Below are positions 10,524 through 62,549 of a DNA stretch of 64,000 nt, piece after piece; the stretch's first letter is position 1, and every line of letters starts with the position of its first letter. The notes under the pieces were generated by a model. It saw only the letters and a program-made list of their open reading frames with translations. It was not told the DNA's origin and did not search any database. A program made the position numbers and the translations under genes. The DNA is from Trissonchulus latispiculum (lineage: Eukaryota; Nematoda; Enoplea; Enoplida; Ironidae), in the NCBI GenBank assembly GCA_030248195.1, contig JASAND010022385.1, positions 62,001 through 126,000 of the forward strand, in the 5' to 3' direction.

Positions 10524-11045
10524 TTCCATGTCAAAAGTTGCTCAGCTCACTTAGGGCTTTCATTTGATACCAAATTTGACCACTTTTGAAAACTTTCATT
10601 TTTGACCGAAAATCGCCTAAGTCCCCACCCCACCCCACCACAGCACTCTACAGTCACTTTGAGCATGCAGTTCTATGACAAAAGTTGCTCAGCTCGCTTA
10701 GTGCTTTCATTTGGTACCAAATTTGACCACTTTTGAAAACTTTCATTTTTGACCGAAAATGGCCTAAGTCCCCACCCCACCCCACCCCACCACAGCACTC
10801 TACAGCCACTTTGAGCATGCAGTTCTATGACAAAAGTTGCTCAGCTCGCTTAGGGCTTTCATTTCGTACCAAATTTGACCACTTTTGAAAACTTTCATTT
10901 TTGACCGAAAATCGCCTAAGTCCCCACCCCACCCCACCACAGCACTCTACAGCCACTTTGAGCATGCAGTTCTATGACAAAAGTTGCTCAGCTCGCTTAG
11001 GGCTTTCATTTGGTACCAAATTTGACCACTTTTGAAAAATTTTAT
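10524..11045. repeat. Tandem array, four copies of a 147-152 bp unit
   Basis: CAAAAGTTGCTCAGCT begins at 10,532, 10,679, 10,831 and 10,978. Each unit continues CTTTCATTTGRTACCAAATT, a CCCCACCCC tract of variable length (the source of the 147/152 difference) and TTTGAGCATGCAG. The last copy is truncated. Copies are nearly identical, so expansion was recent. Noncoding. Confidence 0.9.
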
Positions 11046-11059
11046 TTTCGACCACTTGA

Positions 11060-11520
11060 CCCCCCACCCGACTGACCCTTCAAACGGCAAAGTGGAACCA
11101 GCCCAGCAAAATAGGTACGTCGGACGGCAAAACGGATACCGGGAATGAGCTGGGCACACCAGAAAACCCCTATAGACAAAGTTTTGAGAGGCCAGGTAGA
11201 GCCTACTATGGACCTCCAGGAAGCGGTTTCGGACATGACCCTCCAGAAGGCAAAGTGGAACGAGCACAGTAAGATGGATGAGTCCTACGGCAAAAACGAC
11301 ACCGGGAATAAGCTGGGCGCACCAGAAAACCCCTATAGACAAACTTTTGAGAGGCCAGGTAAAGCCTACTATGGACCTCCAGGAAGCGGTTTCCGACTTG
11401 ACCCTCCCGACGGCAAAGTGGAACCAGCCCAGCAAGATGTGTGGGTCTGACGGTAAAACTGACTGCGGGAATCGATTCTCCGTGCCAGAAAACCATTGTA
11501 TGGAAGATTTGAGCGTTCAA
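11060..11520. repeat. Tandem array, about 2.7 copies of a 163-bp unit
   Basis: GGGAAT preceded by ACC or TGC recurs at 11,141, 11,304 and 11,467 (163-bp period). The shared unit contains GAGCTGGGCACACCAGAAAA, GTTTTGAGAGGCCAGGT and GACCTCCAGGAAGCGG. Because 163 is not a multiple of 3, the frames on both strands change in each copy, so they are not coding. Confidence 0.85.
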
Positions 11521-22072: not shown

Positions 22073-23217
22073 TTGGTGAGACAGGCGAAAAAAGGGGAGG
22101 TGGTCACTGAAAGGAAAGCCCTGTCAGCCTACCTGAAATCGACTGTCCTGGAAGAGGGAAACCCGAGAAGAATTGCTGCTGATGGCAATTGTAGGAAAAG
22201 ACTGAAATCGGTGACATCATGGCGGGAATTTGCCAAAGAAAATCGACACGTCAGGGATCTGGCCGGAATGGAACGAGAACCAATACTACGGCAGCCACCC
22301 AAACCGCCCTGGGCACAACCGCCAGAAGTAGACATCTGTCTGGAGTGGAACGGCCAAGTCAGCACCATAGGCGGTCGAGTAGAAGCCTATACTGACGGGT
22401 CTGCCAAATCTGGGACTGACGACGGAGGAGCTGGAGCCTTCATCATACTCCCAGATGGGACCACTGAGCGAATCTGCAAACCAGCCGGAAAACTTTGCTC
22501 TAGCTATCGGGCTGAGCTAAAGGCAATAAGAATGGTCCTGGAATGGTATATATCTGCAGAAGTGGAGCTGTGAAACAGACCGTCCGACCATGATCATTCT
22601 GACCGACTCCCGGTCTGCGCTACAGAGGCTGGGAAAGGGACCAGGAGCGGCCATAGGAGAAATGGAAGCGCAAATCTGGAATCTCCTGTTTGAAGCCGAC
22701 GGAAGAATATCCTTCCAGTGGGTACCAGGACACACCGGAGTTCCTGGAAATGAGAAAGCGGACGAAATAGCTAAGCAAGGATCAGCCCTTGCCCAGCTAG
22801 ACGAACCGGTGAACCTTCCCACCATGCAAAAGTATATATGCATATCGGAAGACGGCAGAAGACTGGAGAACCAGTATTGACCATCCACTTGTGCGGAGAA
22901 TAAATCCATCACTACAACCAATCAGCGACGAAAAGGAGACCGGATTGTCCAAAAAACAGAGGGTAATTCTGGCCTAACTGTCCTCAGGAGGCCACTGCAG
23001 CCACCTACAGGCACCGCATAGGTCAGGCTACAAGTCCTGACTGTCCCCGATGCGGAGAAGCAGAGGAAGACCTGGAGCACCTCCTGCTTGATTGCCCTGC
23101 ATTAGCGACGTATAGACTGCATACCCTGGGACATACCCCCTACCTGGATATCCTGGTGACGGACCCCAAACTGGTAATTGGGTTCCTGGAGGTGGCGGGG
23201 CTAATAACACAACCCTG
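22073..23217 (+). pseudogene. LINE ORF2 fragment: RNase H domain plus terminal zinc knuckle
   Basis: The frame from 22,073 contains VEAYTDGSAKSG, GGAGAFI and SSYRAELKAI (first Asp and the Glu of RNase H). It stops at 22,573, and a shifted frame from 22,590 continues IILTDSRSALQRL, VPGHTGVPGNEKADEIAKQ (second and third Asp). After further breaks near 22,880 the frame resumes YRHRIGQATSPDCPRCGEAE and LEHLLLDCPA, the CCHC-type knuckle and tail seen in I/R1-type LINEs. RT and endonuclease are missing upstream. Related tail at 12,426-13,060. Confidence 0.75.
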
Positions 23218-29989: not shown

Positions 29990-32848
29990 AGAATTGCTAT
30001 ATGGAGTGAATAGTATCTCCTCTCTTGACAGGCAACATCTACTTATACGTGACTTAGAGGAACTACGTATAGACATTGCCTGCCTGACGGAATCCAGAAT
30101 TCCAAACATCGGCTCGGTCAGAGTAATCGCTGGCAATAATTGTTGCACAATATACCACAGTGGACACGCTACCAATAGAACGGAAGGTGTGGAAATTGCT
30201 GTATCAGACGCTGCTGCTAAGGCTTTCCTCGGTGTGGAATCCATCAGTGAAAGAATAATGGTTGCCCGTTTTTGTGGTCAAATCCAAGATGTATCTGTGG
30301 TGGCCTGCTATGCACCGGCCGATGTACAAAACAGAAACCCGTTCTATCACCACCTCACTAATGTCGTCCAAAATTGTCTCCGGTCCGACATGCTAATAGT
30401 CTTTCAACGCTGAAGTTAGCACAAGCCGCTCTGGATGGGAGCACACCATCGGCAGATTTGGAAGTGGAAGTATGAACGACAACGGATTACGTCTTGTGAG
30501 CTTTGCCTCCGACTTCCAATTGAAGGTCATGAACGGTTTCTTCCAGCACAAACTCAGCTACCGTTTAACCTGGTACGGCAATGCCGGAAATTCCAGTAAA
30601 CAACTGGATTTCATATTAGTCCGTCAAAGATGGGCGTCGTCGGTACAAGATGTGCGGGTACATCGCGGAACCAGCTTACCCAGCGATCATGAACTGGTTT
30701 TGAGACGAATTAGACTGCGACTGAAAGCCTCACAGCAACGATACACTGGTCAAAAAAGGCTAAACATTGGCTTGCTTGATAACAACACCGTGCAGGACCA
30801 GTTTTCCATCAAGCTTTCTAACCTATTCAATGCATTGAGCACTGCGGAGGACCTGAATGACGCTGAAACCGCTTTGGCGGAAACAGCGAAGGAAGTTCTT
30901 GGATTTCAAGGTCCAAGACCACGACCTGTTCCTTTGAGTGAGTCAACCATCCCTGTATCTAACCAGAAACGTAAAGCCAGCAGCACCAGGAGGAAAAGAG
31001 AGCTAACAAAGCGACTGCGTGGAGGCATGAAAGCAGACAAAGAAAGCATGTGGAAGACCACAGCAGAGAACATTGAACGTGCAGCTTCGCATGGTAACTC
31101 CAGGAAACTTTCTCGTTGCGGAGAGAGGCGACTGGTCGTTGATCGATAGTCAGCGAATCCATCCTTGATGACAATGGACATTCGCTCCAAACCAGAAAAA
31201 TTGAAACACTGGACAAATTTATGTTCCCAACTGTTAAACCGGCCCGCGCTCGAAACTGTGGACAATGATTTGGATGCCTTAGTAGATAATATCCAGCAGA
31301 TTGACGGCATCTCAACAACACCGCCTACCCAAGAAGAAATTGCCAAAGGCTATCAAGGCACTAAAACGGGGCAAGGCAGCTGGCCCTGATGGACTTCCTG
31401 CAGAGATCTACAAAACAGCTGCACACGTGATAGCGCCAAAGTTAACAGAACTTCTGCAGCTAGTTTGGCGTTCTCAGCAAACTCCTAAGAAATGGCAAGA
31501 AGCTATCTTGATTTCTGTTTTCAAAAAAGGTGATAGACGACTATGCAAAAGCTACCGAGGAATCTCGCTGCTTCCTGTTGCTGGTAAAATCTTGTCGATC
31601 GTCATTTTGGAGAGATTGAGTACCACACTAGACTCTTCAACAAGAGAGACTGAAGCCGGTTTCCGTAAAGGACTGGGCACTATTGATCAGATATTTTTTC
31701 ACTACGACAAGTGCTTGAGCGTCGTCACCGGTACAACCAGTCCACAATAGCCGCTTTCCTTGACTTCTCCGCTGCCTTCGACAGCGTCGGCAGTCCGGTA
31801 CTGTGGAAGCTTCTAGCGGCCTGTGGCGACCCAACCCTGTACGTAAACCTGATCAAAAACATCCATAACGAGTCATCAACTAGAATTCGGGTGTACGGCG
31901 AACTAAGTGAGCCTATCGCTGATAGGTGTTAGACGTTAGACAAGGGGCGTTAGACAGGGCGCCGTGTTGTCCCCTCTTCTGTTGCTACGAGCTGTGGATA
32001 GAGTGATGTCCAAGAGTATACAGCCTGATCATGGTATTAGTATCAGCGACAGGGATCTAATTGCGGACTTGGAGTATGCGGATGACATTGCAGTGAGGCG
32101 GCCAATCAGGAAAATATGCAGCGACTTATCAACAAAGTCATCGTGCATAGTGAGTCCATAGGACTTAAATTGAACGCGGCGAAGTGCAAGTACAAATATT
32201 CGGCAGCTCACACTCGTGACCTGATGGTAGACCATCACCCCATCGACAAAGTTGAAGCCTTTCCATACCTCGGAAGCCTGATTTCTGTAGATGGAGTTCC
32301 CTCTGCTGAAATCGACTGTAGAATCGGGAAAGCGCTAAATGTATTCAACCAGCTTAATAAACATCTATGGCGCCGTCATGAAATTTCTGTACGAACAAAG
32401 ATGCGCATTTTCAACAGCATGGTAATGTCGGTACTGCTGTATGGGCTCGAAACAACGCCTTTGCGGAGAGCGGACGTCGGCAAGCTCGAAACTTTTCAGA
32501 ACGGCTGCCTGCGCCGAATACTCTGACTCAGACGGGCAGACCGGATTAACAATGCCGAACTGAGACAGCGGGCCGGGCACACCAGCACCATGGAATCGCA
32601 TCTGCGGAAGAAAAGACTGCAGTGGCTCGGTCACGTTGCTCGAATGGATCATAGGCGCCTTCCTAAATTATCCTTTTCTCTCTCCCTCCATCGACCTGGC
32701 GGAAAAGACGGGGCCGACCGCTACAAACGTGGGAGGAAAATGTTTACGACGACCTGAAGAGCTCATTGGCACTATACTCCCTTGGCAACTTTAACTGGAA
32801 GGACACAGTTAAAACACTCGCGGCGGACCTAATTTAGTGGAAGGAGAT
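29990..32848 (+). pseudogene. RTE-like non-LTR retrotransposon, endonuclease plus RT, frameshifted
   Basis: Order is intact. The endonuclease shows CLTESRIP, VVACYAPADV, LTWYGN, QLDFILVRQRW and SDHELV (29,994-30,700). The RT shows AAGPDGLPAEIYK, SYRGISLLPVAGKILS, AAFLDFSAAFDSVG, QGAVLSP and LEYADDIAV (31,370-32,100). The C-terminal tail shows LYGLETTPL and LQWLGHVARMDHRRLPK (to about 32,690). Frame changes or stops occur near 30,413, 31,149, 31,385, 31,750, 31,930, 32,100 and 32,525. The sequence closes with GATGATGATGAACAAGTATA AGTAAGTA (space inserted), a typical short-repeat LINE tail. Recent by similarity to a canonical protein, but not functional as read. Confidence 0.8.
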
Positions 32849-39242: not shown

Positions 39243-41010
39243 AAGGTGGTGATTCCCTTTGGTCACATAAAGTTTGCACCATTATAACTCATTCATTACT
39301 TGGAGTTAAGAAGCCATTTTTATATCAAAATGTAGCTTGACATTTTCTCTTTTTAATGAGTACAATGAATCTAAGTTTGGCTTTCCAAAATGTTTTTCCT
39401 GTATTTTAGAAGAAGTATAATTTTTCAGATTTTTTGCAGGCTGAAGTAGATTTTTCGCAAGACATCGGTTAGAGCATTCGATACCTCTATCAAATAGCTG
39501 GGGACCCTTTTTTTAGTTATTGTGATATCGCTCTTCGTTATGGAGAAATAAACTAAAATGTCTGCGCAACCTGGATTTTGCCTACTTTTCACTACTTTGG
39601 CAAGCCACTACTTCAGTTAGAAAGCAGCTATCGGGGCAACTAAAAAAGGGTCCCGGGGTATTTTTGTGTAGAACACATCTGCTAAGTGGCAACTCTCTAG
39701 CTTGCATACTAAATTCTGCACAATCGCTGGAAAAAATTTGGTCGTGTTTTTGCAAAAACTACATTTTTATACCGCCGGAGGCGGTATACTTGTAATGGGT
39801 TGACCCATCTCAATTCATATGTTTTGCATGTAGATTGAATGGCGCGGAGGATTTCCGTCCTATCTTCAACACATGTCCCTGTTACGCAGGTTTTTTGTCC
39901 AACAATTTTTCTAAGAGTTTGCAATTTTTAGAGCATCATTGCAGTCGATTTAGTTCATTTTCAATGCCCTGTAAATTGTTTTGCAAACGATCACTCTCTG
40001 CCTTTTCTCATACTACCGAAAATCGGGCGTTATTTGCCTGTCACTTGGTTGGCAGGGTTTAACAGATCAATAAATAGCTAAAACTGTTGTTACAATTTTC
40101 GTGTGCTAAGACTGAGTTTGAGCTTGCACTGTATTTATTTCATTAGTGTTTGTTTGGATTTAGAATTTAGATAAAATAAATTGTTTAAAATAAACATATA
40201 TAGATAAATGATAATTTTCTCTCTCGCAGTTTACTCAATAAAAACGTGACAGTCAGAGTAGTGTAGTGGCTAGGGTGTCCGCTTGGCGCTGGTCCGGACA
40301 CAGATCGAATCCTTTTTCCGGTAGATTTTAGTTTCACAATTAGCAATGGCAAATGGCAATAAAATACTCCCATTCTTTTGTCTCAGAGACGGCAAATGTC
40401 GGGGAGTTGAAACTTTAGTCAAAAGCTGACGTCACCGTACACTAAGATCATACTATGAACAGTATATATGATGAAAACAAGCAAAACGTTGAACACATAA
40501 GTTCCAAACTCTACGGCGGTATTATTCCCCTTTTAAGGGGTTACTTGTTTGTGATAGCAGCCTAAGGGATAGCAATTGTACGATGGTCATGCCTCCGATA
40601 ATTGGCCTCTGTGAGACCTTTAAATTGACACCCTTAGTTAAATTTTACGGCTTTCGTTGCTCAAGAAGTAGTGGATTATTTGATTTCTGCAGAAAGGACA
40701 AGTTTTTGACGCCAAAATAAGAAAATTGGCTATATCTCACGATAGGGAAAAGCTAGAAATTTCCTTCCAAAAGCAAAATTGTAGAGTTTAACGAGTTCTT
40801 TCGAATGGATATAGTCATAGCCATGCAGCTGCTGCCAAACTTTCAGAAATTGGCAAAAACCGCCCTGAACGCAAATGTTGAACTTTTGAAGCGCGATTGC
40901 GCAGAGGGTGTTAGAACGCTAAAACAACTTATTTTGGAAAGTTTCGTTGAATTTCATCCTGGTTTACGCCATCAATCAACAATATGTGACCAAAAGGAAT
41001 CACCACCTTA
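39243..41010. mobile_element. AAGGTGGTGATTCC-ended element hosting the two-gene transposon at its right edge
   Basis: Left end TTAAGGTGGTGATTCCCTTT GGTCACATA (space inserted) and right end the inverse, GTGACCAAAAGGAATCACCACCTTA in two parts, GTGACCAAAAGGAATC and ACCACCTTA. After removing the two-gene transposon the right flank reads CCACCTTAAGCAC, so both ends carry TTAA/TTA, compatible with a TTAA or TA duplication. About 1.77 kb, noncoding. A diverged copy is at 18,206-19,720. It contains the tRNA-like segment at 40,252-40,330 and a GCCGGAGGC hairpin near 39,775. Confidence 0.6.
40252..40330 (+). repeat. tRNA-like SINE head
   Basis: GTAGTGTAGTGGCTAGGGTG resembles an A box and, about 35 nt further on, ACAGATCGAATCC resembles a B box (GRTTCRANTCC). 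The cloverleaf looks incomplete, so I call it a tRNA-derived SINE head rather than a tRNA gene. It lies inside the AAGGTGGTG element. Confidence 0.4.
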
Positions 41011-41448
41011 GGAACTGTCTCAAATTATCCTTCCGGAAAATGCGCATTTTTCAATCGTATATGCGTTTCTGGAAACGTATATGTAGATTGTTTTATACGT
41101 ATTTTGCCACTGTCTGAATCGCATTATGCGTTTTGAATTCGTTTACCTTATCTTTCAACGAATCTCTATGTAGTAAACAACCTATTCAGTATGTCAGACA
41201 AAAATGCCTTCAGTTTCTTTCAAGGCTTTAGTTAAAAACTGAGCCTGCTTAAACTTCTCCAGCCAAGCCTATCTGCTAAAAAAGGCTCCTTCATATATCA
41301 AATAGCACCATTTGATCCACATGTTGTATGTTTTATAATTGAATGGTTCAAAGTATGAATACAGTAAATGCAGAAACAAAAACAACAGATCAATTGTAAA
41401 CAAAAAAGTAGTAAGTCAGTTTAAATTGGCAGTATGCTGTCACAGTTT

Positions 41449-44400
41449 CTAATGGTTAACATTCAGTTGGCGTTTAGGTTTAGAATTATGTAAGCGACTT
41501 CTGCAGGCGGTATTGAGCCAGCTTTTGACTTGTTTGTCCATTTTTTGCGGACTTGAGGAGGGGCACACTGATGGAAATTGCCTCTTCAACTCCCTGAGAA
41601 TAGCACCAAGTCGCCGTCTGCAAAGGGGTGGCTTTTGATGAAAAAACGACATGTATTTTCGGGGACTTCCAGTAGCACTGCTTTCAGACAATTCTTCATT
41701 GGAAAATAATAGTGGTAGCAGTTTTAACGTCAATATTTTTGGTTTCTGAAGATCAGAGTGTTTTCCTGACAAAACAATCCCCTTTAATAAATGTTTATCA
41801 AAATATGATGCGCTGATATAGTAATCAGTATGCAGTGCGCCGGCATGTCCACCAATTAGATAGTAGTCGTTGGGATCTGATGGCCTTGGGGCGGATGGGA
41901 CCAATTGGTAGCATTCTGGACCGCAGACATGGATTCCCCTGGTTTTAACTTGGGCATTCGACGAAACAATCTTATTGGGATCAAGACAGAACTCCGACAC
42001 ACCCTCTTGTGAGCCAGCTTCTGGTTCCGCCTCAAGAGTACGCGGGGTTGTTTGCACGCAGTGAAGTTCATCCAAACCTGAAACAATTATATTATTATGT
42101 ATATTAGCGACCGTTAATCGAAGCAATCGTTTCAAATCACTATGTACATTTTTAAGAAAATTAACTCTACAAGCTTACATGCAGCTTACTTACATAAATG
42201 TTATATAAGTTTCTGGTTTTTGTCATTTTTTGTAATTTAATTCAAACAATTGGGAATAATGCATAGAACAATATTTTGCTGAAAATCTGTAGTTTTGGTG
42301 TGATACCATAAAACTATTTTGCAGTAAGCATTTTTGCAGCCTCTAGACAGTACAAAGTGAAATGCATGTCTTTATTACGTGTATCTGCTACAACATTGAA
42401 TTACTTCGCTTGATAGCATAATAAAATTAACGAAAATTCGACGCTAAGATCCCTTGAACTCTGGTAGTTGTGTCCCAAAGTACTGAAAGTGCACAGAAAC
42501 GCAAATGTATTTTACTGACTTGTATTTCTTTCTAATTCCGGATCGCCCACTTGATTGGCTTGATTATCTGAGCAGTCAGCGGAACCGACCATCTCAGGAG
42601 AGTAGGACTCACCCCACTCTCTAACCGAGTCTGTTTCACGAAGAGCGTCGGCTATTAATGCTGCAGTAGTCAAATCACTTTGTTGAGGAACACCCTCTTC
42701 AGCGGTTGAGGAACATGCAAGATCTGACGTGTTTCTGTCTATCGAAGCCTCAAGTCGAACTGATCTGAAATAACCTTTAATCTGTACATCGCAACATAGA
42801 TAATATAGATTCTTTAATTATGCTTAATGCAATAATACACAACAATTAACCCCTTCACAGTAGAGTTGTTCCCGGGCCTTGAATCGGGCCTCGGACTCCA
42901 AGCCGGGCCCGGGCCGGGCCTGCACCGGGTAGGCCTGGGCCCGGTTGTTGGATCGGCAGACGCGGTCGACCGCGGGGCCCGGCCAGGTCCGATCGGACCC
43001 GATGAGGCCCGGTCAAATTTTTGTTGTGTAAATTTCATAATTTTTCCAAATTCACTGCATTAGTAAGTTAAATTTAGGCTTTCATGAGTTGCTTAAGTTG
43101 TGATAAATAGCATTAACTATGAAATAATAATAATAATAATAGTAATTATATCGTCTTCAATGACTGAACATTAATAATATTAATAATAATGTCAAGTCAA
43201 ATGGTAAACTGAAACTTGCTTTCTGTAGATGACAGCTTGTGTTGCTTGCACACCAGTTTCGATTTTCGCCATGCTTGACTTTATATCATATAACTGAGAA
43301 TTGGTATCAGCTTTGAAGGATACCAGATCGGATCTCAAAGATGTGGCAAAGGAACGAAATTCACTTTTAAGTGCTGCAAGTTCAGCCAGCACTGTTCGAT
43401 CAGGCAAGCACTGATTCGTAGTAATCCGGGGTTGCTGCGAACTAGCTTTCTGTGCCTCACGTGACAGTAGATAGCAGGCTCCACAATTTCCAATCTGAAA
43501 CAAAATCAAATAATTTTACATATTTATTTAATTATTTTTTTAATTTTAGTTACCATTTGATTTAATTTTGTTTTGTGTGAGTGATTCTTAGTAACAGCTA
43601 TGGATCCTGAGTTTGCGAATTGGAGTGCTACTGGATACGAATCAGATTCGTCAGATTTAGACTGGATATTCCAAGATGAATCGGGAGATGAAGCAGACAG
43701 GCCCGTGAAACGAAGGCGTCAACCTGGTCCAAAGCTGAAGCACGAAACTTACCCCGAACTGAAATGTATTGTGTCCCGTTTGTTAGAGCAAAACGCAGCA
43801 GGGGCTCATGAACGAAGGCAGGATTCTACTATGTACTCCTCTGGAACTTCCTTGAATGAACTTGCTGAAGCTGTAAACGTTGAACTCAGGAAACTGTACC
43901 CTAATGACCCTAAGGCAAGGGTAAGTAAGCACACGTTAAGGAGGCTTGGCTTACCTCCTTCTAAAACAAGGAGATCTTCATCTTATTACAAATCTATTAT
44001 TCCGTTCAAATTACCGCACAGACGAAACGATTTGATTGTCAAAGCCCACGACGATTTCCATTTCACCGCTAGTCAGATCAATTCGCTGCTCGATATGAGT
44101 GCTTATTTCTGCGAAGATATCTTGGTTCTATCTGCTGATAATAAGAACAAGATAAACATCGGCACACCAGCTGTCAGCCATTACGTTAAGCCTAGAGGAA
44201 TGCATTTGGTTGACTTTGCCCCGAACGATCCTGATCATACCTTTCCAGTCAGAGGTAGCAAATTACCATTAACTAATAACTGATTTTTCCGCACCAGTTA
44301 GCAGCAATCCTATACATATAATAGCCAATAGTTTTAGCAAGAGTACATATGATAACACTGTGTCAGCAGACCCCAGTCAAATCAGGCCAAGTCAACTGAA

Positions 44401-47255
44401 ATCAAGACCCCCCACAAATCAATCAGACCCCAGTCAACGTCCCCCGCAAATCCACTAGGGTCTGATTTGTGGAGGGGGTAATAGACTGGTAATGGTTTTC
44501 CATCTGATAACAGAAAGCATGCCTGCTGTCACATTCTTATCATTGTGTACTCTTGGTAGACTCAGGTAAACTCGGAAGCCCGGGCCCGCTGCTAGACCCG
44601 GCTCAGCAAGTTCTAGACTCGCAAACAAAGTCCGGCAGGCACGATGAGCCCGGTAGGCCCGGTGGGCCCGGAAGCCCGGCAGGCGCGGTGGGCCCATCCC
44701 AAAATCTTCTGGGCCCGAACCTAAACCGGGCCGGACCGGCCCAGGGCCAGGAGCCCGCTATACGGCCCGGGTACAACCCTAACTCTTGGTTCTAGTATAG
44801 ATGTACATAGCTCTAATGTATGAAATTAAGTATTATCAAGAGTACATATTACATAAGAATATGACAAGCGTCATGCTCTATGTATTATCAGCTTGCTACA
44901 TCCTCTGCACGCTATGGGCTTATCCCCCCCATAAATCAGAATCAGACCCCCCCTTATTAAAGCAAATTCGAACGCTATGCTTGCACGCTAAAGCTCAAAA
45001 AGACAACTAGTCAGTTACATAGTTCAAAGTGCGTCTGCTGCGTGCAAACATAGCGGGCGACTTTCTTTGACAAATTATGGGGGGTCAGCCGATAGCGCGC
45101 ATCGGATGTAGCAGCCTTATAATACATAGCGATGCCTGCTGTCATACTCTTATGTATTATGTACTGGTGTTATATACCCTATATTATTTTCAGCAGGTCC
45201 TTGACATTTTATAATTGTTTAGACGCTAAAATTAATCCGATGGGTTACATGATAATGCAGACTAAAATCCAGCGTAGCAGATCCGCAGAAAAAAGATCGA
45301 GGAATAAGCTTGTTGGTTGCTCTAGAAAATCCCGATCTTGCTCGCCATTGAAGGTTCGGACACGGCATCAAGAAGTATTTGCGGATACTCATGGCAGAGA
45401 CCGATTTAAACATGGAAAAAGTGGCGATTTGTTTTTGTTTCTATCTGCTCAAAGGTATTACAAGTCAACATCGAATAGGCACGTCAACCAGCTGCTGGAG
45501 TTTCTCCCTCCCATTTTGAAAATGTACGGATACCGATCCCTTCTCATACTATGTGATGGAGGGCCAGACTGGACTGTGAAATCATTAGCTAATATGTTTA
45601 TGTGGGGCAAACTGTGGTTTAGACTAAATCTAGATTGCCTTATCCTAGCCTGTTATGCTCCGGGCCATTCAAAGTTTAATCCAATTGAAAGAAGATGGGG
45701 ACCACTGACAAAAAGATTGGCAAACGTCATTATTCCGGCAACTTTGCCGGGTGATTCTATTGAACCTTGGAGTCAACCTATCTCAACTGAAGAAAAAGAA
45801 GAAAAAACAAAGAAAGTTTTCGACAACGCTCTGGAAACGTGTTCAAAGTATCTGCAGAAAGATAAATACGATGGATTTGCAACGAAAACTCGCTGCATCA
45901 AAGCTTTAAATCCAGATCACGTGGATACTTTTAGTGATAGCTTTTACGATGAGGTGACACGGATTCTAAAAAGTCAGAAATTTTCGAAGCACGAAAGTCC
46001 ATTGATTGATGAACTCAAATTTTATATGCGGCACTGCAAAAGAATGAAGTACAAGTTCGAAATTTCGCGTTGCCAAAACATCAGCTGTCCGTGTAATTCT
46101 GGCCATCGGTTACACCTATCGCCATTCATGGAGTTCCTTTGGCAGGTCGGTGGTACTCCTAACCCACAAATGTACGATGTCAACAACAAAGGTCACTATA
46201 AAACATTTTTGGAAACCCTGCGGTGGCCCTCTAAAAAAGGGCTGATGAATGACAGTACTATGTGTCAGCTTGGTTGCGATTACGAGTTTCTCTCCAATGC
46301 CGACAAGATAAGGCACAATAATCTAATCCATAACTCTCGAGGAGAAAATTAGGTTGCTTTTGTAACTGAGATATGCTTCTATTTTTTGAATTTTGTTGTG
46401 TGTGACAGTCTGTCTCGTAGTGTCGCGTATAAAAATTAGTGATAAAATAATTTTTAAATAGTAGGTAATAACGTTGATACTTAATACCTGATTATTACGA
46501 AAGAGTGCAGGCTCTAGGTAAGATTTAGCCTACCAAGAGTACATAATGATAAGAGTGTTACAGCAGGCAGACTCGCTGATTTGGTTGTAAAGCCGGTCTG
46601 AACAAAAGTTAACACAAATTAGAACAAAATAAAAGAATTTAGCAATTTTTGAGGTTAACTATGTTTATTTAAAGCCTCATCTTTGATTAATTTGTTATTC
46701 CATTCGTTGGTTGGTGGTTAACAACCATTAGCGTGATGAACAGTGCTTACAAGACAACCGCATGACTGCCGCGGACATTTGTCACACTCTGATCATTATG
46801 TTGTCTTGCTTCTATTTCGTTGTGCTGCAAAGTTAACTTATTCTGAGTTTGAACCATCTTGCAATATTACGACAACTGGTTGAAAGTGCCATTCTGACCT
46901 GAAGCTTCACCTAGTCAATGCGAAACTACAATTAGAAAATGACACACTGTTTTGTTCGTTGCTTCTTAGTCACTGCAACTGCAATGTAATGTTTAATACT
47001 TACATTTGTTCCCGAGCGCTTTAGCGATTCGAATCGGCCAACAAGTTGGTCTGCAATCTTTTCCGCCTGATGCTTTTCTGAGCTGGAGTAGCGCCCATAA
47101 ATGTGAACAGTATACTGTCTTCCTTCGTAATTAGTGGTTGCATGAAGGGCAGAGTCTGCAGTTTGGCAAATGTCATCGCTGCTGACAGTGTCAACCCAAA
47201 TTTTGTCATCATCTCCATCACAAACATACACAACAACAGCCCACTGCTTAGCCAT
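41449..47255 (-). CDS. BEN-domain, coiled-coil accessory protein of the transposon (four exons, 466 aa)
   Basis: Exons on the minus strand: 47,255-47,004 (starts ATG, MAKQWAVV; donor GTAAGT, phase 0), 43,494-43,220, 42,764-42,520 and 42,077-41,449 (stop). Phases 0, 2 and 1 close exactly. Exon 2 leaves through a GC donor (AA|gcaagt), and only this choice keeps the frame into exon 3. The N-terminal 84 residues are unknown. Exon 2 into 3 is a heptad-rich coiled coil (LAALKSEFRSF ... SSMAKIETG). The C-terminal part (about residues 370-450: KHLLKGIVLSG, TLKLLPLLFSNEEL, LRELKRQFPS, SWLNTACRSRL) fits the BEN domain, a DNA- or protein-binding module. Probably binds transposon DNA or partners the transposase; role inferred. 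Annotation as four unconnected frames would miss the gene. Confidence 0.78.
42864..43020. repeat. GGGCCC-array fragment, hAT-like left end
   Basis: TAGAGTTGTTCCCGGGCC is followed by repeated GGGCC/GGCCCGG words. The start matches the end of the element at 44,557-44,781 (TAGGGTTGTACCCGGGCC in inverse). No right end or duplication found; it lies in BEN intron 2. Confidence 0.5.
43600..46352 (+). CDS. DDE-type transposase (two exons, 594 aa)
   Basis: Exon 1 is 43,600-44,254 (MDPEF start) and exon 2 is 45,223-46,352. Donor AGAG|gtagca and acceptor attgtttag|AC join in phase 1 without a stop. An acidic start and a basic RRRQPG segment precede a helix-turn-helix-like region (about residues 84-115; LNELAEAV ... 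VSKHTLRRLG). Candidate catalytic residues are D180 (VLSADNKNKINIG), D330 (LILCDGGPDW) and E374 (HSKFNPIERRWG). The motif surroundings recall the IS630/ISAzo13 side of the DDE fold (inference). Then a Cys-rich patch (CQNISCPCNSGH) and a C2H2 finger, C-x3-C-x12-H-x4-H, ending near IHN. Frame intact over 594 codons, suggesting recent activity. It sits inside the antisense BEN gene's intron 1. Confidence 0.8.
44337..44556. mobile_element. CCAAGAGTACATAAT-type MITE in the transposase intron, copy 1
   Basis: GCAAGAGTACATATGATAA at left and inverse TTATCATTGTGTACTCTTGG at right. Flanks TTTTA/TTCTA (after removing the adjoining hAT) suggest a 5-bp duplication with one change. Internal inverse pairs include GACCCCAGTCAA-type words. 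Family master copy at 55,694. Confidence 0.6.
44557..44781. mobile_element. hAT-like MITE with GGGCCC arrays, 8-bp TSD ACTCTTGG
   Basis: Starts TAGACTCAGG, ends CCCGGGTACAACCCTA. ACTCTTGG is repeated exactly at 44,549-44,556 and 44,782-44,789. The duplicated target is the terminus of the neighbouring MITE. Interior is GGGCCCG/CCCGG words, 225 bp. Confidence 0.75.
44837..45167. mobile_element. CCAAGAGTACATAAT-type MITE in the transposase intron, copy 2
   Basis: CAAGAGTACATATTACATAAG at left (20 shown: CAAGAGTACATATTACATAA) and inverse ...CTTATGTATTATGTACTGG at right. A CATCCTCTGCACGC/ATCGGATGTAGCAG-type inner pairing and the GACCCCCC ... CTATGCTTGCACGCTA core are shared with the 55,694 copy. 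Confidence 0.6.
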
Positions 47256-48352
47256 GACTAGGCAAGCAGAATTCAATAGCAACCATTAACTTCAACTGCC
47301 AGCCACAAAGTTTCAATAAAAACGCTTCAAAAACAGCAAACAAGACAGACAAAGCAACGTTTTTATAAGACTTAAGCTGGGCACCAAGTTGGTAGTAAAA
47401 ACATTTCTTCAAAACGCATTTTGAACTGAATCAAAACGCATAATGCGACTTATAAACGTATAACTTGCAAAGATAAATGCGTTCTCAAATAATCGCATTA
47501 AACGATTATAATTTGAGACAGTTCCTTAAGCACATAGGAAGATTAGCGACACACGAAAGAACAGGCGAGCCGGCTGCGCTTTCATGCGTCGCTTTTTTCA
47601 ACTTAGCACAAGCACAATTAGAAAACGGTTTTACGCATTTTTGGGACAATGGCCGTGGGCTATTTTTTATGGTTTCGAGTTTTGTATTTCTCTTCGAGAG
47701 AAATAAACCTACAAACTTAAAAATTTAGATGAAAATCAGACTAAATTCACATTTTGCTCAAAATCTTGAGCTTACTTGATCATTAAACGATTTTAGAAAA
47801 ATAGCCCTATGGAGGACGTTTCTTCTGAACCCTGAAATGGTCGCTTTTCTTTAGTGTTCCTACACTTAGAGAACTCTATGTTCAAAAATTGTTTGGTGTT
47901 ATCTTAGGAGAAAAAGTAAAGCCAACCCCTTCGTAGCCCCCCCCTCCCTTGAATATAGGTAAAAGCTAAATACAAATTAATAACTACAAGCTGTCCTTCG
48001 GCAATTTCTGCGTTCTGACAATTGCACAGTCAGTTCTTGAGCCATCTTAGCAGAAAAAGCAAAAAATTCTCCAAAAATAAATAAGAGACATATTAATTTA
48101 ATTTTGCATGCAACCCTCTTATTGCTGCTTTTCTGCGCAAAAGAAAAGCGCTTTAATAAACATGCACACATTTCTCAACTGTTCTGAACATGTCTTGCAT
48201 GCAACCTTATAAGAGAGCCGCATAAATAAAACAGGCTTCATAAAATGCACTTTCTCGCCAATGCAATTCTCAGCAATGACAGTCTCGGCAATGCAAACTA
48301 TGGCTTTTAGTCTTTCTCGTCAATGCAAGTAATGAGCATTCACCGTTCTTAG

Positions 48353-50466: not shown

Positions 50467-53086
50467 AGATCTACTCGTCGTAAAATTGCGGAACGTCTCT
50501 TACTATTCCTGACTGTTGTTGCAATGATTTGCGGAGTATTGCTTGGTTTAGTGCTAAACTCTACCTTAACGGACAGTCCTTGGCTGAGAAAGGATTCCCT
50601 TGAAAGAAAACTGTTTATGAAACACCATCCTGGACGTCTTTATCTCAAGCTTCTGAAGACGATGGTGTTTCCAATGGTTTTGGGTAAAAATTTTACAATT
50701 TTATAAAGTAAAACATTTTGAAAACTGAGTTTAGCTATAAAACGTTATTTCTCTTCTCTTGATTTTCTAATGTACCTTTACTATACCGCAATACCGCGCA
50801 ATATGCCCACTATACCTTTACATTTGTTAGATATTATGTAACTATTTAGGTTTTGTCCTGTTTTTGCAGGATCCAACATTTCAAATATGGTGTCGCTTTC
50901 CACGGAAGCTGCAAAAATAACAGGACTGTGGACATTTGCTTATTTTTGTGTTGCCATTGTTGTTGCGGAATGCATTGCTATAGTCACAACAGTCTGCATT
51001 AATCCAGGTCATAATTGGTCCTCTGAAAACGTTAACTCCAACGTAGCCAACGGAAGCAGTTGGCGTTCAGTAGACACGGCTTTGAATGTTCTGCGTTTCA
51101 TTGTGCCAGAAAATATAGTGAAAGCTACCTTTTCCATGGATAAAAGGGCGCAAGATGAAGACATTCATGCGAATGTAAGACTCTATTATGAATTTTAGAG
51201 ACAGATCGAGTGAACAACGGGAGACGAACCTGTAGCGTTGTGCTACCATTAAAACTGTGATAGGGAGCACAGCGCTACAAACCTCTGTGCATCTACCAGT
51301 GTTCGGCTATGGCATTGCAGCACGTTTGGAGGGCATCTCACGTCATTTGGTGGAAAAGTAGTTATGTTCTTCTTTTTGTACCTAAAGCATGTGCTGTTTG
51401 CTACTCTTTGAGCTAACTCCGGGTTATGAAATATCCAAGGCCAACTGAGTTTTGTTAAAGGGAAAATCAGGTTTCGACCGTCGACCAACTATGATATTTC
51501 TTCGGGAAACTTGGTTTAGTTGCTCTTTAAACCAGGGTCTGCTTCTTGGAAAGTGCTTTGTATCTCAGGGACATAACCAGGATGTCTAATGAAGCAAACA
51601 AATACCTTTAGTTTAGGTGTCCGTTTCTAACGAATAGCATAACACATGATGGAAGTAATGATTTTTCGGTACTGATCGGAGCGTTAGGAGTTTGCAAACA
51701 TTTGAGAATCAGTTTAGGCAGTTTAGCGTAGCGTTTTCGTGCTGAATAATGCAGAATGAACGAGCTAATCTTATACATTGTCTGCTATCGTTCGAAAAAG
51801 TAACTTACTATATTAACCAAAACAACTTTGCGTTACATTGATACAATTTTCAGAACCATGCTCGGCGATAACTCAGATCAGATACCTTTGTGCAAAGTGT
51901 AGAAAAGGAAAACAATGTAATGCTAATTTACGTTGTTTTTGTTATTTTTCAGATTGACGATAATCTGGATAAACTGTCTCATAATTTTACAAATCTTTCT
52001 GGATCAGACCTTGTGACAGGTGCTAATCTACTTCAGCAAGATTTAACAAGTGACTATTACAACAGTACCGACGTAATGGGCTTGATCTTTGCCTCAATTA
52101 TGTTTGGTATCGGTTTACGACACCTGGGAGAGGAAGTAGCCCTTCTGTCTAGCGTCTTTTTCGGACTTCGAAGAGTCCTCGTAAAGCTGGTGAGTTCATT
52201 CATCGTCTGGCTGGCTCCCGTGGGAATCTTTTTCCTGGTGACAGAGCAGGTCGCTGAAATGGACAATATTCCAGAAAAGTTGAACAACTTCCTATGGCTT
52301 TGTACCACTGAAATCATTGCTGCCTCAATACACGGCCTAGGCATCCTTTCTTTAGTGCTGTATTTAACCACTAAGCGTAGTCCCACACGGTTCATATCCA
52401 ATATGGGCCATGCTCTGTTGACAGCTGCAGGCACTGCTTCAAGCATGGCGACCCTACCAATAACCTTGGAATGTTTGGAAGATCGAAATCAAATCAACCC
52501 TAATGTGGCTCGTTTTGTGATGCCCTTAGGCTGCAGTTTGAATATGCAAGGAACCGCAATGCATTTATGCACTTTAGCTTTGTTCTTTGCACAGCGTGAC
52601 AACCTAAGCATTAAATTTGTTGATGTTCTGTTGGTGATGGCAACCGCATTCTTGGCCCAAATTGCGACTCCTACGATGCCAAGTGGTAGTCTACTCACAG
52701 CTCCCATGGTCCTGGAATCTATTGGCATCCTTGAAGGACAAAACCACATGTTTACCCTATGGTCTGTTGATTGGTTCCTTGATAGAATTCGTACGGTGTT
52801 AAATGTGCATGGAACTGCGGTTGGTGTGGCTGTGGTGGAGAGACTTTGCGGATCGAAATTGGCGTCCACTGACGAACTACCGGACATGTACACACGTATG
52901 ACCACAGAGACTTCTGTAGAGAACGATGTAATGGCCGTAATTTCGCCGCGAGGACCGTCTTCGTTCTGGAAATCTTTGGTACCCAAGCGAAGGGGATTCT
53001 GGGATCCCTGGAATCCAGCTTGGCTTCATAGAACCATTAAGACTCATACTGCTGGAAAGTTTAGATTCAGACGTCAAATGTTTTGA
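50467..53086 (+). CDS. SLC1-family (excitatory amino acid transporter-like) carrier, three exons
   Basis: Exons 50,467-50,683, 50,870-51,174 and 51,953-53,086 with consensus splice sites; phases 0, 1 and 0 close. With the exon at 34,076 the product is 604 residues. Family marks: first membrane helix LLLFLTVVAMICGVLLG, KLLKTMVFPMVLGSNISNMV, a glycosylatable extracellular loop (NVANGSS, NFTN), hairpin 1 SSMATLPITLECLE, NMQGTAM and VDWFLDRIRTVLNVHGTAVG. R507, T508 and N511 of the substrate pocket are kept. Two sodium-site acids are changed: the NMDGT Asp is Gln (Q426) and the NVxGD Asp is Thr (T515). A plasma-membrane Na+/dicarboxylate or amino-acid carrier by family, but ion coupling is probably altered. 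The start is supplied by the inferred upstream exon. Confidence 0.85.
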
Positions 53087-55215: not shown

Positions 55216-58200
55216 ATGACAAATTCCCTTGTTGCAACGTTTGCAATTTTGTCTGTCTGTCACTTAGCCGGTGGTCAGTCAACAACATTGAAACCATCGT
55301 TTGAAGTAAAAAATGACAAGAACCCTTTCGACTCGTCCTTTATCACCTACATTGACTCCTACATTCAACAGTTGATGATATGTCAAAAGATCCCTGGCGT
55401 TGTAATCTCTGCAGTAAAATTGGATGAAAACTCGAAACCTCAAATCTTTACAAAGGGATACGGTAAAACTGTACCAGATGTTCCAGACAGTTCCGATGTC
55501 TCTGATAAATCTACAGTCTGTCTTGGACAGGTAAAACTATATAATGTTTATTTGCGTATAAATCATATAACTTTTAAATTTTTCATAATAGTTATTTTCA
55601 TATAATATTGTTAATTATTGTTATCGTTATCATTGCTTTTTCAAAGACAGTCAATCAAACCTGATAAGCTGATCAGCTGTCGAGTAAGTAAGACCAAGAG
55701 TACATAATATAAGAGTGTGGCAGCAGGCAAGCTCTCTGTTATCAGCTGTAGGTACATGCTATGTTCGCTAACGGCTGACCCCCCCACAAATGTCTATGTG
55801 CTCTTCAAAGAAATTCGCACGCTATCTTTATGTGTTAAAGCTAGAAAACACAACTACTCAGTTGGTTCAATGTGCGTCTGCTTCGAACATTAACAAGTAA
55901 AGATAGCGTGCGAATTTCTTTGAAGAGCACATACACGTTTGTGGGGGGGGGGTCAGCCGTTAGCGAACATAGCATGTACCTACAGCTGATAACAGAGAGC
56001 TTGACTGCTGTCATACTCTTATGTATTATGTACTCTTGGTAAGACCAAGAGTACGTAAGACGGAGTAGAACATTTAGTTCAAATCCGAAAAACATGGGTT
56101 TTGATTTGAGCCATCCAAAGGGCGAATGATTTAGCTGTGTGCTTTCTTCCTGATTTAGTGGGCACGATTTAATGTAAAGCTGGCTCTTTAGTTTGCTGAT
56201 GTTTAGTCGTTACCGCCATAGGAGCTTAAGCATAACGAGAGCGACACTTGTTATACTCCTTCCTACGTATCTAGCTATATACTAAATGTATACTTTTGAT
56301 ATTACTTTTAGTTAGTGTTGTTTCAGTAAACAATTTTAGTTTTAAGTATCAGTTTCCGTTTCAGTTAGTTGTTCAAGATGATTTCAGTTTCAATTTCAGG
56401 TCTCCTGCCAAAATAGTTTCAGTTTCAGTTCTAAGTTTCAGGCGGAGTTTTAGTTTCAGTTAGCTTTAGTTTCAGTTCTTTCAAAAAACTGCAGTTTCTA
56501 GCCTTCAAAAATAAGATAATGCATAAATTTATGATTGTTCCACAGCAGAATATTAAGAAAAAAGTTTTTCAAAACCTTCAAACTTTAGGTTTTGATTTGA
56601 GAAAAAGATTGAAACTAACTTCAGTCCAAGTTTCAGGTCTTTACTCAATCAAGTTTCAGTTTCAGTGTCAGACGGCTGCATTAAATAGTTTCAATTTCAG
56701 TTTCAGGTCTCCTCCCAAAATAGTTTAGTTAAGTTTCAGTTTCTGAAACTGAAACTGAAACTGAAACTTGTACAACCCCATCGGTATTTTTAAACTTTTG
56801 TAAAAACCCAACAACAACAACAACAACAAAGGGGGAACCAGCAAAAGCTACTTTCAATCTTCAGTGGTTTCCTCTACTACACAATACATTTATGATGTTT
56901 TTATTTTAGGTTACAGAAACTTTCACAGCAATCCTCGCTGGGAAGTTAATTGATTCCAAATCGATGACATCGTTCGATGAGAAGCTGTCGGAAATATTCG
57001 GTCTGTCAGATCCCTTTGACAGGGCGGAACTTAAAGACATAACTGTGGCCGACATTTTGGGTCAGACCTCTGGTGTGAGTTCATATGACAAAATCTTGCT
57101 CACTCTTGGATCAAATCTAAAGGACAGGTCCGATCTGCTCAAGCTTTTGCCTCAGCTAGACAGCTTGGAGGCACCAATACGGTATCGGCAAGAGTATACC
57201 AGAAATGCGGCTGTTTATACCCTGGCTGGGTTGGTTGTGGAGCGGAAAACGGGTAAAAAGTGGGAAACGTTTCTTACCGACTCCCTACTTAACCCACTGG
57301 GAATGACCAACACAAAGGCTACAAATCAGTTAACTGATCTGTCTACCTTAGCACGACCGGGAATTTGGGCGGATAAGAAATATTACCCTTGGACTAATTC
57401 CGCCATTAACGCTGTCAATCCGTTTCAGCCAGCGGCTGGGTTGTGCTCTACTGCTCAGGACATGGCAAACTGGCTCATTTTTCTCCTCAAGAATGGACTG
57501 TCCGCGAAAGGTGAACAAATTTTACAGTCAATTACTCTTCATGAACTGCTGAAACCGAAGTTGGAATTTTCCAGAAAAGAAAGCTACAATGGAAATCTTT
57601 ACGTGGAAGGATCATGCCTGGGCTGGAAGTTTGGCCGATTCAGGGATCAAATAATTTATATCTCTGAAGGGGACTATTTCGGTCATAGTTCCATACTTTG
57701 GCACATTCCTGACTCCAAGCTAGCCATCTTTATGGCAAGAACCGGATCGAAGTATCTTACAGAGGCGGAAGAAGATCAGCTTAGTCTATATATGGCTGAA
57801 CAGGTTGCTTCGAAGATATTGGGCGAAAACCCAATCTGGGATATTGGACACGCTTGTGCAGTCGCAGCATCAGTAGAGCAAAAATGCAAGTGTGAGAACA
57901 CGAAGGTGCAGAACGCAGAACAATATGTTGGAACCTATACTAATGATATGATTGGTGATCTAAAGATATACCAGAAAGCCAGCGACAAGGAATCACTTGG
58001 AATTTCGCACGACGAAATCGTGGGTACTTTGTGCCCATGGAAGGACGAAAACGGGTCTTTTTGGGTGGAATTTGACAATATTTACAATCTATTGCTGTCT
58101 GATAAGTGTCCGAAAACTTGTGAACATCCTGATAGTTGTCTTCCAAGTCCTATAACGTTTCACGGCAACTTAACTGAAGAATTCTATTACGCTTTCGATG

Positions 58201-58349
58201 ATGTATCTAAAGTGGCCGCCTTGTCCTTCAAACTACCATCGGGTCCTGGAACTCCGGAACCTAAAAAACAGGATGACGCTGCAACGTCTATTAAAGTGTT
58301 GCCTTTAACTGTTATTGCTATGATAATTTGCTTTGTTGTACTTAAATAG
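55216..58349 (+). CDS. Secreted beta-lactamase/S12 serine-hydrolase-like pseudoenzyme, two exons
   Basis: Exons 55,216-55,530 and 56,910-58,349 (GT-AG, phase 0) give 584 residues. The ATG lies in a good context (CACCATG) and is followed by a signal peptide (MTNSLVATFAILSVCHLAGG). Family marks: VTETFTAILAGKLID, the ILGQTSGV block of S12 proteins and VYTLAGLVVERKTG. Catalytic motifs are lost. The S-x-x-K position reads QVTE (Q105, E108), the Y-S-N position aligns to RNA, and the C-terminal H/K-T-G block reads GHSSILWH. The C-terminal KVLPLTVIAMIICFVVLK after a polar spacer suggests a GPI-anchor signal. Probably a cell-surface binding protein; function unknown. The intron contains a MITE and a GTTTCA-word repeat. 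Confidence 0.82.
55694..56039. mobile_element. CCAAGAGTACATAATA MITE, best-preserved copy
   Basis: Long inverted repeats of about 150 bp with ends CCAAGAGTACATAATATAAG and inverse TATTATGTACTCTTGG. TAAGA flanks both sides (55,689-55,693; 56,040-56,044). Contains CGCTAACGGCTGACCCCCCC and its inverse. Other copies lie at 44,337 and 44,837, and a half copy at 46,533. Lies in the S12-like gene's intron. Confidence 0.85.
56310..56785. repeat. GTTTCAGTTTCAG-word repeat, possibly hAT-like
   Basis: TAGTGTTGTTTCAGT at left and CTGAAACTTGTACAACCCCA at right, with arrays of AGTTTCAGTTTC in between and GAAACTGAAACTGAAACT near the right end. The TAGNGTTGT terminus resembles the hAT-like elements here, but no 8-bp duplication was found. 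Confidence 0.5.
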
Positions 58350-60700: not shown

Positions 60701-62549
60701 ATCTTCTAATGCAAACCGAGCTGCTATAATGTTTATACTCTTTCAACAAGTTCACAGATTAGCTAGCAGTATGACGCATGACGGCAGTCTTCAACTGTCG
60801 ATCACATTTAAAGCTCTATTGCCAATAGGTACTTATATTTTAACCAGCAGAGGTAGCAAACTAATTAAATCTTGCCTCGCTTGTCAAAAACAGCTAGAAC
60901 GCTACCATGGAAATCCTGTGCTTACATTAAGGCGATTTATACTTTTAAATAAGCAGATTTTTTATTTGAAAGCACTGCTTTGGAAAAGCACTCTGTTTCA
61001 GTTTAAAAGTGGTAAGCAGACAGTTGTTGCGTATTAAACGATTGAACTAATGACGCACTGAAAAGAGAAACGACTCAAAAGCTTTTGGTTACTGGTAGAT
61101 CTCTCCATTGTATGATGTTGCGTCGTTGCGATCTGAACACGAATCAGGAATCCGTTTTACAATTCAATGCTAAGCTAACGAAAAGCGGAATCGAAGAACA
61201 GGTTTCGGGTTCCTCCTCCTCCCATAAAATCTCTATGTGCAAACTTTCAGCAAACTCGGGGATAAAACATTTTGATCCCCTTTGTTCCCTGCCAACTTGA
61301 AAATTTAAAAATTCTAAACCTTTTGAATTCAACAGAGTCTAGCATTCAACATTTCAAAGTCAAAACAAATTCAAATATTAGGGCTGGAGAGAATGGCGAA
61401 AGAAATCCGAATATTTTTTGTTTGAAAAGTTGAACAACAACAAAACTTATAAACAAGTAATGGTTCACTTGCTTCCTTCATGAGTTTCTGATGCAGAAAA
61501 TCTAACTTATTAGTCTAGTGGTCAATTTGCAAACTTAAGCGATTCGATTGGAAAGGCCGAGGCCCATCTTAGACGGTCTGACAGGTAGAATGAATGGCGA
61601 ATTCTAATGCCGACTGCTCACAAATAGAATCCTTTGAGTGAATCCTTCCCAAACAAGGAACTTTTAAGAACGAAGCGAAAACTACCGTAATGCCCTTTTC
61701 TCTCCAAGCGGAGAGGAAGTTTCTGTATTAAGTTAATTTGGAACAGCCTTCCACTAAACTGGAAGGAGTACAAATAAATTATCGTCGGCTTATTAACAGG
61801 AGGGAGAATATTCTCGCCTTGTAGTAGATGTAGCGGTGGTTTGAACTGCTGCACTCTGCCCGGAAAAGCAGCTCGCTGAAGATCGGAAAGTGTAGCTCTG
61901 ATACTGTTAAAACCGTTTCAGTACTAATCTCTGCAGCTGCAAATTCGTTACTAAATCATTTACCGTTCGAAGAATTTAGTTGGAACCGTTTCCATTCGGC
62001 CTCAAGCTTTAGCGGATTTGTGCTGCACGCAACGAGGTTTTCAAAAACTGCTGGTAACATTACTTTAGTATCCAGAAATAAGCTGTTGGAGGCAGCCAAT
62101 ATATCTTTGAGCGGATGAGTATCAGTGATTAGATTCGCAATAACAACGAATCATGTAAATGCTAATTTTTCAGTGAAGCAGAAACACAAATTTAACCCTT
62201 CGTCCTACATTAGTCCCTGCACAACACCCAATTAGCTTTCTTTAAATTTCATTTATTACTTCTTTTTTATGGTTAATTAAGTGAATCTTATCCTTTCTTT
62301 TAATTGATCATTATCCCTCATGTCAACGGTTCATAGGGAAATTTCCTATTTTAGCTATTGTTCTATTCCACCCAAACGCAGTAAAGGTAGACTTAGTAGA
62401 TACGTACGTCACTAGATCGGTCTGTTAGCAACTGATAAGGAGTCATTCATAACGTAGGTAGGTCTTGACTAAGGCTCTCTTCATGGTTGGTTACCAGAGA
62501 CTGACAAAGTCCTGAATATTGGAGAAACGATTATTTTCATAACTATTCG
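60701..62549. other. Intergenic/upstream of the PC2-like gene
   Basis: No repeats with clear ends and no coding motif recognised; should contain the promoter and any 5' noncoding exon of the convertase. Confidence 0.4.

Follow-up and report, generated by a model that had tools for sequence, protein, structure and literature searches.

A two-gene DNA transposon of the Zator/ISAzo13 kind with a BEN-domain partner in the nematode Trissonchulus latispiculum

Two-gene transposons commonly use a second DNA-binding protein for transposition, and in PIF/Harbinger elements, which duplicate a TWA target, this second protein is of the Myb/SANT-like type. The Zator superfamily seems to have been little studied. 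It comprises eukaryotic DNA transposons whose prokaryotic counterpart is ISAzo13 (PMC10045372, PMC7386202, PMC5718144), and a 3-bp target duplication is reported for Zator/ISAzo13 (PMC10045372). Within another superfamily, Kolobok, several lineages carry extra proteins such as KolX, nucleases, and RecQ (PMC9587614). In Tn3-family transposases (TnpA), the specificity domain DBD1 has a BEN-like fold and reads the transposon end, and the BEN domain itself has been tied to chromatin silencing (PMC9579193). Here we describe a 6,515-bp element at positions 41,011-47,525 of a 64,000-nucleotide stretch of the Trissonchulus latispiculum genome (“the window”: assembly GCA_030248195.1, contig JASAND010022385.1, forward-strand positions 62,001 to 126,000). 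It carries a transposase gene and a gene for a BEN-domain protein, both open and on opposite strands.

The element starts with GG and ends with CC. Its left terminal inverted repeat, GGAACTGTCTCAAATTAT (41011-41028, plus strand), is matched exactly over 18 bp by the right one (47508-47525, minus strand), or over 19 nt if the flanking A/T is included, and a TTA target-site duplication can be read at each flank (41008-41010 and 47526-47528). The same or nearly the same end occurs at loci L017 to L022, L024, and L025 of the nematode's own genome (733.8 Mb in 21,732 contigs, with the window lying within contig C15167). A perfect TTA or TAA duplication is present at 10 of the 11 element sites where both flanks could be read (the window, L017, L018, L019, L021, L024, L025, L057, L058, L059, and L060), the sole exception being L058, which has none. 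An earlier note on this DNA, made from the letters alone, had reported these exact repeats with their TTA flanks, along with an intact 594-codon DDE transposase, an intact 466-codon coiled-coil/BEN protein on the other strand, and recurrent subterminal words, all of which are borne out here. The empty-site comparison that it proposed was less fruitful: when the flanks of the window copy are joined and compared with the own genome, no uninterrupted match appears. The 120 bp to the left of the element (40891-41010) are a high-copy repeat. Of the 41 matches listed for the joined flanks, 38 begin within this repeat and break off where the element is inserted (query positions 121-130), which places the element at or beside the edge of another repeat.

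In the own genome, the left 120 bp of the element are matched nine times and the right 119 bp eight times. A second full copy, L017 (6,522 bp, TAA/TAA), is 99.4% identical at another site, and its exon matches to both genes have no stops. L018 (952 bp) and L019 (3,400 bp), both flanked by TTA/TTA, are internally deleted copies of the same family. L020 and L021 represent one insertion site on two contigs (L020 lies at a contig end and has the same left flank as L021, which shows TTA/TTA); they have frame damage and an insert of about 962 bp in the transposase intron (L021 3511-4472). This insert adjoins a repeated CTGCTGTC word and is a nested element. L022 and L023 retain one end only. L025 (382 bp, between such ends) belongs to a related family. 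L026, a weak right-end match, proved on inspection to contain no element. The window element is apparently a recent copy, and it is probably autonomous.

The transposase is modelled from two plus-strand exons, at 43600-44254 (holding D180) and 45223-46352 (holding D330, E374, a Cys-rich part, and a C-terminal C2H2-like finger), whose splicing yields 594 aa. When the transposase is aligned with 11 relatives from the database, D330 and E374 do not vary and D180 hardly does, P0007 being truncated at that residue; the catalytic spacing is DD43E. An hhalign comparison matches the transposase to ISAzo13 (98.2%, E 3e-14), the catalytic core aligning through D, D, and E. Four plasmid transposases of the prokaryotic ISAzo13 kind were taken as match stretches only. 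The NCBIfam ISAzo13 family matches 10 of the 12 transposase members. PF07592, with a cut-off of 26.9 bits, is exceeded by the members P0002 (31.3 bits) and P0004 (28.7 bits). No Harbinger-type family appears when the exon open reading frames (ORFs) are scanned against Pfam (E <=10), nor in the NCBIfam scan (E <=1), neither of which is a direct comparison with a Harbinger profile. A search of PDB sequences with the transposase profile gave 0 matches. The element does not make the TA duplication of Tc1/mariner (IS630) transposons, its own being 3-bp TTA/TAA; all 10 duplications are TTA or TAA, as in the TWA of PIF/Harbinger. Judged by sequence, the transposase belongs with Zator/ISAzo13 and not with PIF/Harbinger, its ISAzo13 type and the 3-bp duplication together fitting the known superfamily. 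The earlier note had suspected an enzyme nearer to IS630/ISAzo13 than to PIF/Harbinger, and the profile search against transposase superfamilies that it recommended indeed found ISAzo13. Its “possibly undescribed two-gene DNA transposon” stands as a two-gene transposon, but is not undescribed at the superfamily level, since Zator is known.

The partner gene is modelled as four exons on the minus strand: exon 1 (47004-47255) holds a conserved N-terminal domain, exon 2 (43220-43494) a CGACYL motif and a coiled-coil-like stretch, exon 3 (42520-42764) a poorly conserved linker, and exon 4 (41449-42077) the BEN domain and the stop. Spliced in the order 47255-47004, 43494-43220, 42764-42520, and 42077-41449, these give exactly 466 aa. 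The model requires a GC-AG intron after exon 2, and is supported by an ordinary GT donor found at the corresponding place in the sister element L024; an alternative junction giving 473 aa was dropped on the same grounds. The BEN domain PF10523 (41503-41733, minus strand; residues 135-211 of ORF 41449-42135) scores 24.7 bits against a cut-off of 23.2. The transposase gene has BEN exon 1 on its downstream side and exons 2-4 on its upstream side, and so sits whole and antisense within the first BEN intron. The N-terminal domain, about 85 residues with the pattern AVVxY..D..WVD.....H....G..Y.VH, is common to the BEN partners and has no significant Pfam match, the one weak hit being sub-threshold and unlikely. 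The AlphaFold2 single-sequence BEN model (predicted local distance difference test, pLDDT, 38.7) is too poor to use. No database relatives were found from the single sequence (E <=10) or from the five-family alignment (E <=1) among the 7,994 top word-sharing candidates scored, a search that requires shared exact 5-residue words and predicted proteins and so does not imply absence in other species. Among viral contigs, 14 pattern matches yielded 0 confirmed relatives.

The introns contain further repeats. MITE-like (miniature inverted-repeat transposable element) inverted repeats are found in the transposase intron and behind its stop (window 44511-44562 / 46527-46578, and 44834-45172), and a related word, AAGAGTACATAATG, forms an inverted pair in L057. 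GC-rich low-complexity blocks of the GGGCCCGG type occupy introns of both genes (window 42870-43010 and 44560-44790) and are similar in style to the GGCCAACGG-rich insert of L020/L021.

The two genes stay paired across families of the own genome, which vindicates the BEN protein as a true gene of the element. The sister element L024 (contig C6634; 5,971 bp, TAA/TAA) has the same ends and both genes open. Compared with the window, its DNA is 68-85% identical over the main matching blocks, its transposase 63-68%, BEN exons 1, 2, and 4 51-69%, and exon 3 about 40%; its BEN domain, at 23.3 bits, passes the PF10523 cut-off. Three more distant families, L057, L058, and L060 (transposase 45-53% identical to that of the window), share the nested layout and have both genes open, the BEN exons included. 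Across the five-family BEN alignment, conservation is strong in the N-terminal domain, at a CG-C-L motif, and through the BEN region (GSPRK, LCRRR, SPxKM), but not in exon 3. Three layouts were found in all: the BEN gene nested antisense around the transposase, on the same strand upstream of it (L038, L040, L046, L055), or on the opposite strand downstream (L047 and a deep clade).

BEN homology is present at 28 of 30 transposase loci, or 24 of 26 distinct places, when the loci are cut out with flanks of <=1.5 kb. It was not found within the cut stretches of L039 and L052; L038 and L055, close copies of these two, do have it, and at the L052 place a BEN match lies about 2.4 kb away, beyond the cut. 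Genome-wide, among the matches listed, 86 transposase matches fall into 54 places and 90 BEN matches into 57; a BEN match lies within 6 kb at 40 of the 54 transposase places, and a transposase match within 6 kb at 40 of the 57 BEN places, where chance would put about 0.06 BEN places nearby. These counts are lower bounds, with the best candidates scored and near-identical copies counted apart.

Both genes have also diverged together. The window and L024 have come close to saturation at synonymous sites, which is why no ratio of nonsynonymous to synonymous rates (dN/dS) is given between families; the proportion of nonsynonymous differences (pN) is 0.237 for the transposase, 0.272 for the BEN gene, and 0.127 for BEN residues 301-466, with exon 3 weakly constrained (pN 0.523, ratio 0.53). 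Close pairs have few changes, and their dN/dS scatters from 0 to 0.87. In 10 families with the nested layout (17 loci minus near-identical ones), pairwise distances in the transposase core and in the BEN N-terminal domain are correlated (r=0.78, permutation P=0.0002). On such comparative grounds, the BEN gene is no accidental passenger, because it is so often paired with the transposase, because both genes are kept open in the families, and because their distances are correlated.

The subterminal regions (41011-41210 on the left and 47326-47525 on the right) are rich in ATGCG/CGCAT words. In these outer 2 x 200 bp the window has 10 such words where dinucleotide shuffles predict 0.96; none of the 300 shuffles has as many as 10, and the inner rate is 0.33 per 400 bp. 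The word GCATAATGC, on either strand, occurs there twice. Related elements are also enriched, with 8 words in L024 (1.02 expected), 8 in L025 (1.25 expected, over 2 x 191 bp), 5 in L057 (1.55), and 5 in L060 (0.66). The ATGCG words are good candidates for protein binding sites.

We lean toward a Zator element whose BEN protein binds the subterminal ATGCG arrays and helps to assemble or regulate the transposition complex. The transposase would cut at the ends and insert the element at TWA by cut-and-paste. The BEN protein, with its N-terminal domain, coiled-coil-like stretch, variable linker, and C-terminal BEN domain, may form an oligomer that would bind the arrays, and would thereby be the element's own end-binding and synapsis or regulatory factor, much as a second DNA-binding protein serves other two-gene transposons. 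The Tn3 system offers a parallel for such a role, a BEN-like fold acting at a transposon end, but there the fold is within the transposase, whereas here it is a separate protein of an unrelated element (PMC9579193).

Several observations weigh against this proposal. The window transposase remains under curated cut-offs (18.8 vs 26.9 bits for PF07592, and 24.2 vs 200 in the NCBIfam scan), and NCBIfam IS630 and IS256 also match 6 and 3 of the 12 members, both more weakly. The PF10523 scores of most other partners are below cut-off (L058 21.8, L038 20.2, L057 17.5, L040 14.8, L047 14.0, L046 13.6, and L055 13.5 bits), and the 411-aa partner of L060 has no BEN row in the Pfam scan. The ATGCG array is not universal, being absent in L058 (1 word, 0.75 expected) and weak in L059 (2 words, 0.32 expected), and the candidate sites could be attributed to the BEN protein or to the transposase alike. 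L020/L021 are without BEN exon 3 (window 42,192-43,214 missing). Finally, 14 of the 54 transposase places have no BEN match within 6 kb among the matches listed. Six of these (C13790, C16354, C17806, C18870, C21339, C3637) appear to belong to the deep clade by mostly 30-35% identity. In a quick tree that clade falls outside the window clade and joins P0007, P0011, and the crinoid sequence P0008 (supports 0.86-0.94). At all three of these six places that were inspected (L059, L061, L062), a coiled-coil-like ORF lies just downstream on the opposite strand; the inverted ends of L059 span about 235 bp and are flanked by TAA/TAA. We term these partners BEN-like only, because the profile match between the C-terminus of the L059 type and the BEN region is weak (probability 13.8%, E 0.002) and the Pfam scan does not call BEN in them.

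The main rival to the co-factor proposal, a possible one if on the unlikely side, is that the BEN protein is a regulator, which would bind at the ends to silence or insulate its own element (self-repression) or else counteract host chromatin. Host BEN proteins are often repressors or chromatin factors, the antisense placing of the BEN gene around the transposase would suit mutual control, and the conservation evidence fits equally well; the common use of a second DNA-binding protein for transposition in other two-gene transposons speaks for the co-factor instead. It is quite improbable that the BEN gene was captured from a host and hitch-hikes with no role in transposition. In that direction point the 17 of 57 BEN places that have no transposase match within 6 kb among the matches listed, and L018 and L019, which are without parts of the BEN gene at their own duplicated sites, as deletion after insertion or help in trans may explain. 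Two of the 17 lone places are, however, deleted or truncated copies of the window family (C13914 = L018 and C21483 = L022), both genes are kept in the 10 compared families with correlated distances, protein-level changes are few against saturated synonymous sites, and repeated separate capture is unlikely.

That the element could be a PIF/Harbinger transposon with an unusual partner is suggested by the TTA/TAA duplications, the GG ends, and the second DNA-binding protein; given the ISAzo13 profile match and the absence of any Harbinger-type family from the Pfam and NCBIfam scans, we think this extremely improbable. The idea that two insertions unrelated to each other, or two genes that happen to lie between accidental inverted repeats, make up the element is refuted by the 99.4% identical full copy elsewhere, by deleted copies with the same ends, and by sister elements with the same gene order; nothing was found in its favour, though the introns do hold nested repeats. 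Since many related elements of the genome keep both genes, the BEN protein probably takes part in their transposition or its control.

With PIF/Harbinger, then, the window element shares the TWA duplication and a second DNA-binding protein, but its transposase is of another superfamily and its partner is BEN, not Myb/SANT-like. Zator elements have in common with it an ISAzo13/TP36-type DDE transposase and a 3-bp duplication; with ISAzo13 it shares the catalytic core (D, D, E) and 3-bp duplications (PMC10045372), while the introns, the Cys-rich and C2H2-like C-terminal parts, and the BEN partner are its own. It resembles Kolobok in that one superfamily there holds lineages with different extra proteins, but the transposase differs, and “BEN” does not occur in the main text of PMC9587614. 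No report of a BEN-domain second gene in Zator was found in the open-access literature, a body that includes neither the original Zator description nor Repbase. Within that literature, three things appear to be new: the BEN partner itself, the fact that several families have kept it, and the antisense nesting of the two genes. We know of no other transposon-encoded BEN protein acting as a separate factor, and literature titles agree.

Elsewhere in the window, a peptide SKIKFFxSGQIWYQMKALS (10947-11435, minus strand) recurs in the L059 flank and marks a dispersed repeat. The stretches 30472-31750, 22073-22573, 51890-53086, and 56964-58349 hold pieces resembling retroelements, whose reverse transcriptase (22.3 bits) and RNase H (24.6 bits) scores stay under cut-off, together with one ORF for a sodium:dicarboxylate symporter (205.6 bits) and another of beta-lactamase-like type (69.6 bits).

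With a conserved BEN partner, Zator gains a two-component mechanism that can be tested, and a laboratory test should be feasible, with two full-length copies at 99.4% identity and no stops seen in either gene. It is conceivable, though we hold it as a tentative view only, that animal Zator was ancestrally two-component, and that a BEN-fold protein would be present in every own-genome clade sampled, including the deep one that groups with a crinoid sequence, as an obligate end-recognition or assembly factor. If so, such transposons would be a plausible source of host BEN genes. Since the BEN proteins of animals act as repressors and as boundary factors, a mobile source would bear on how they arose.
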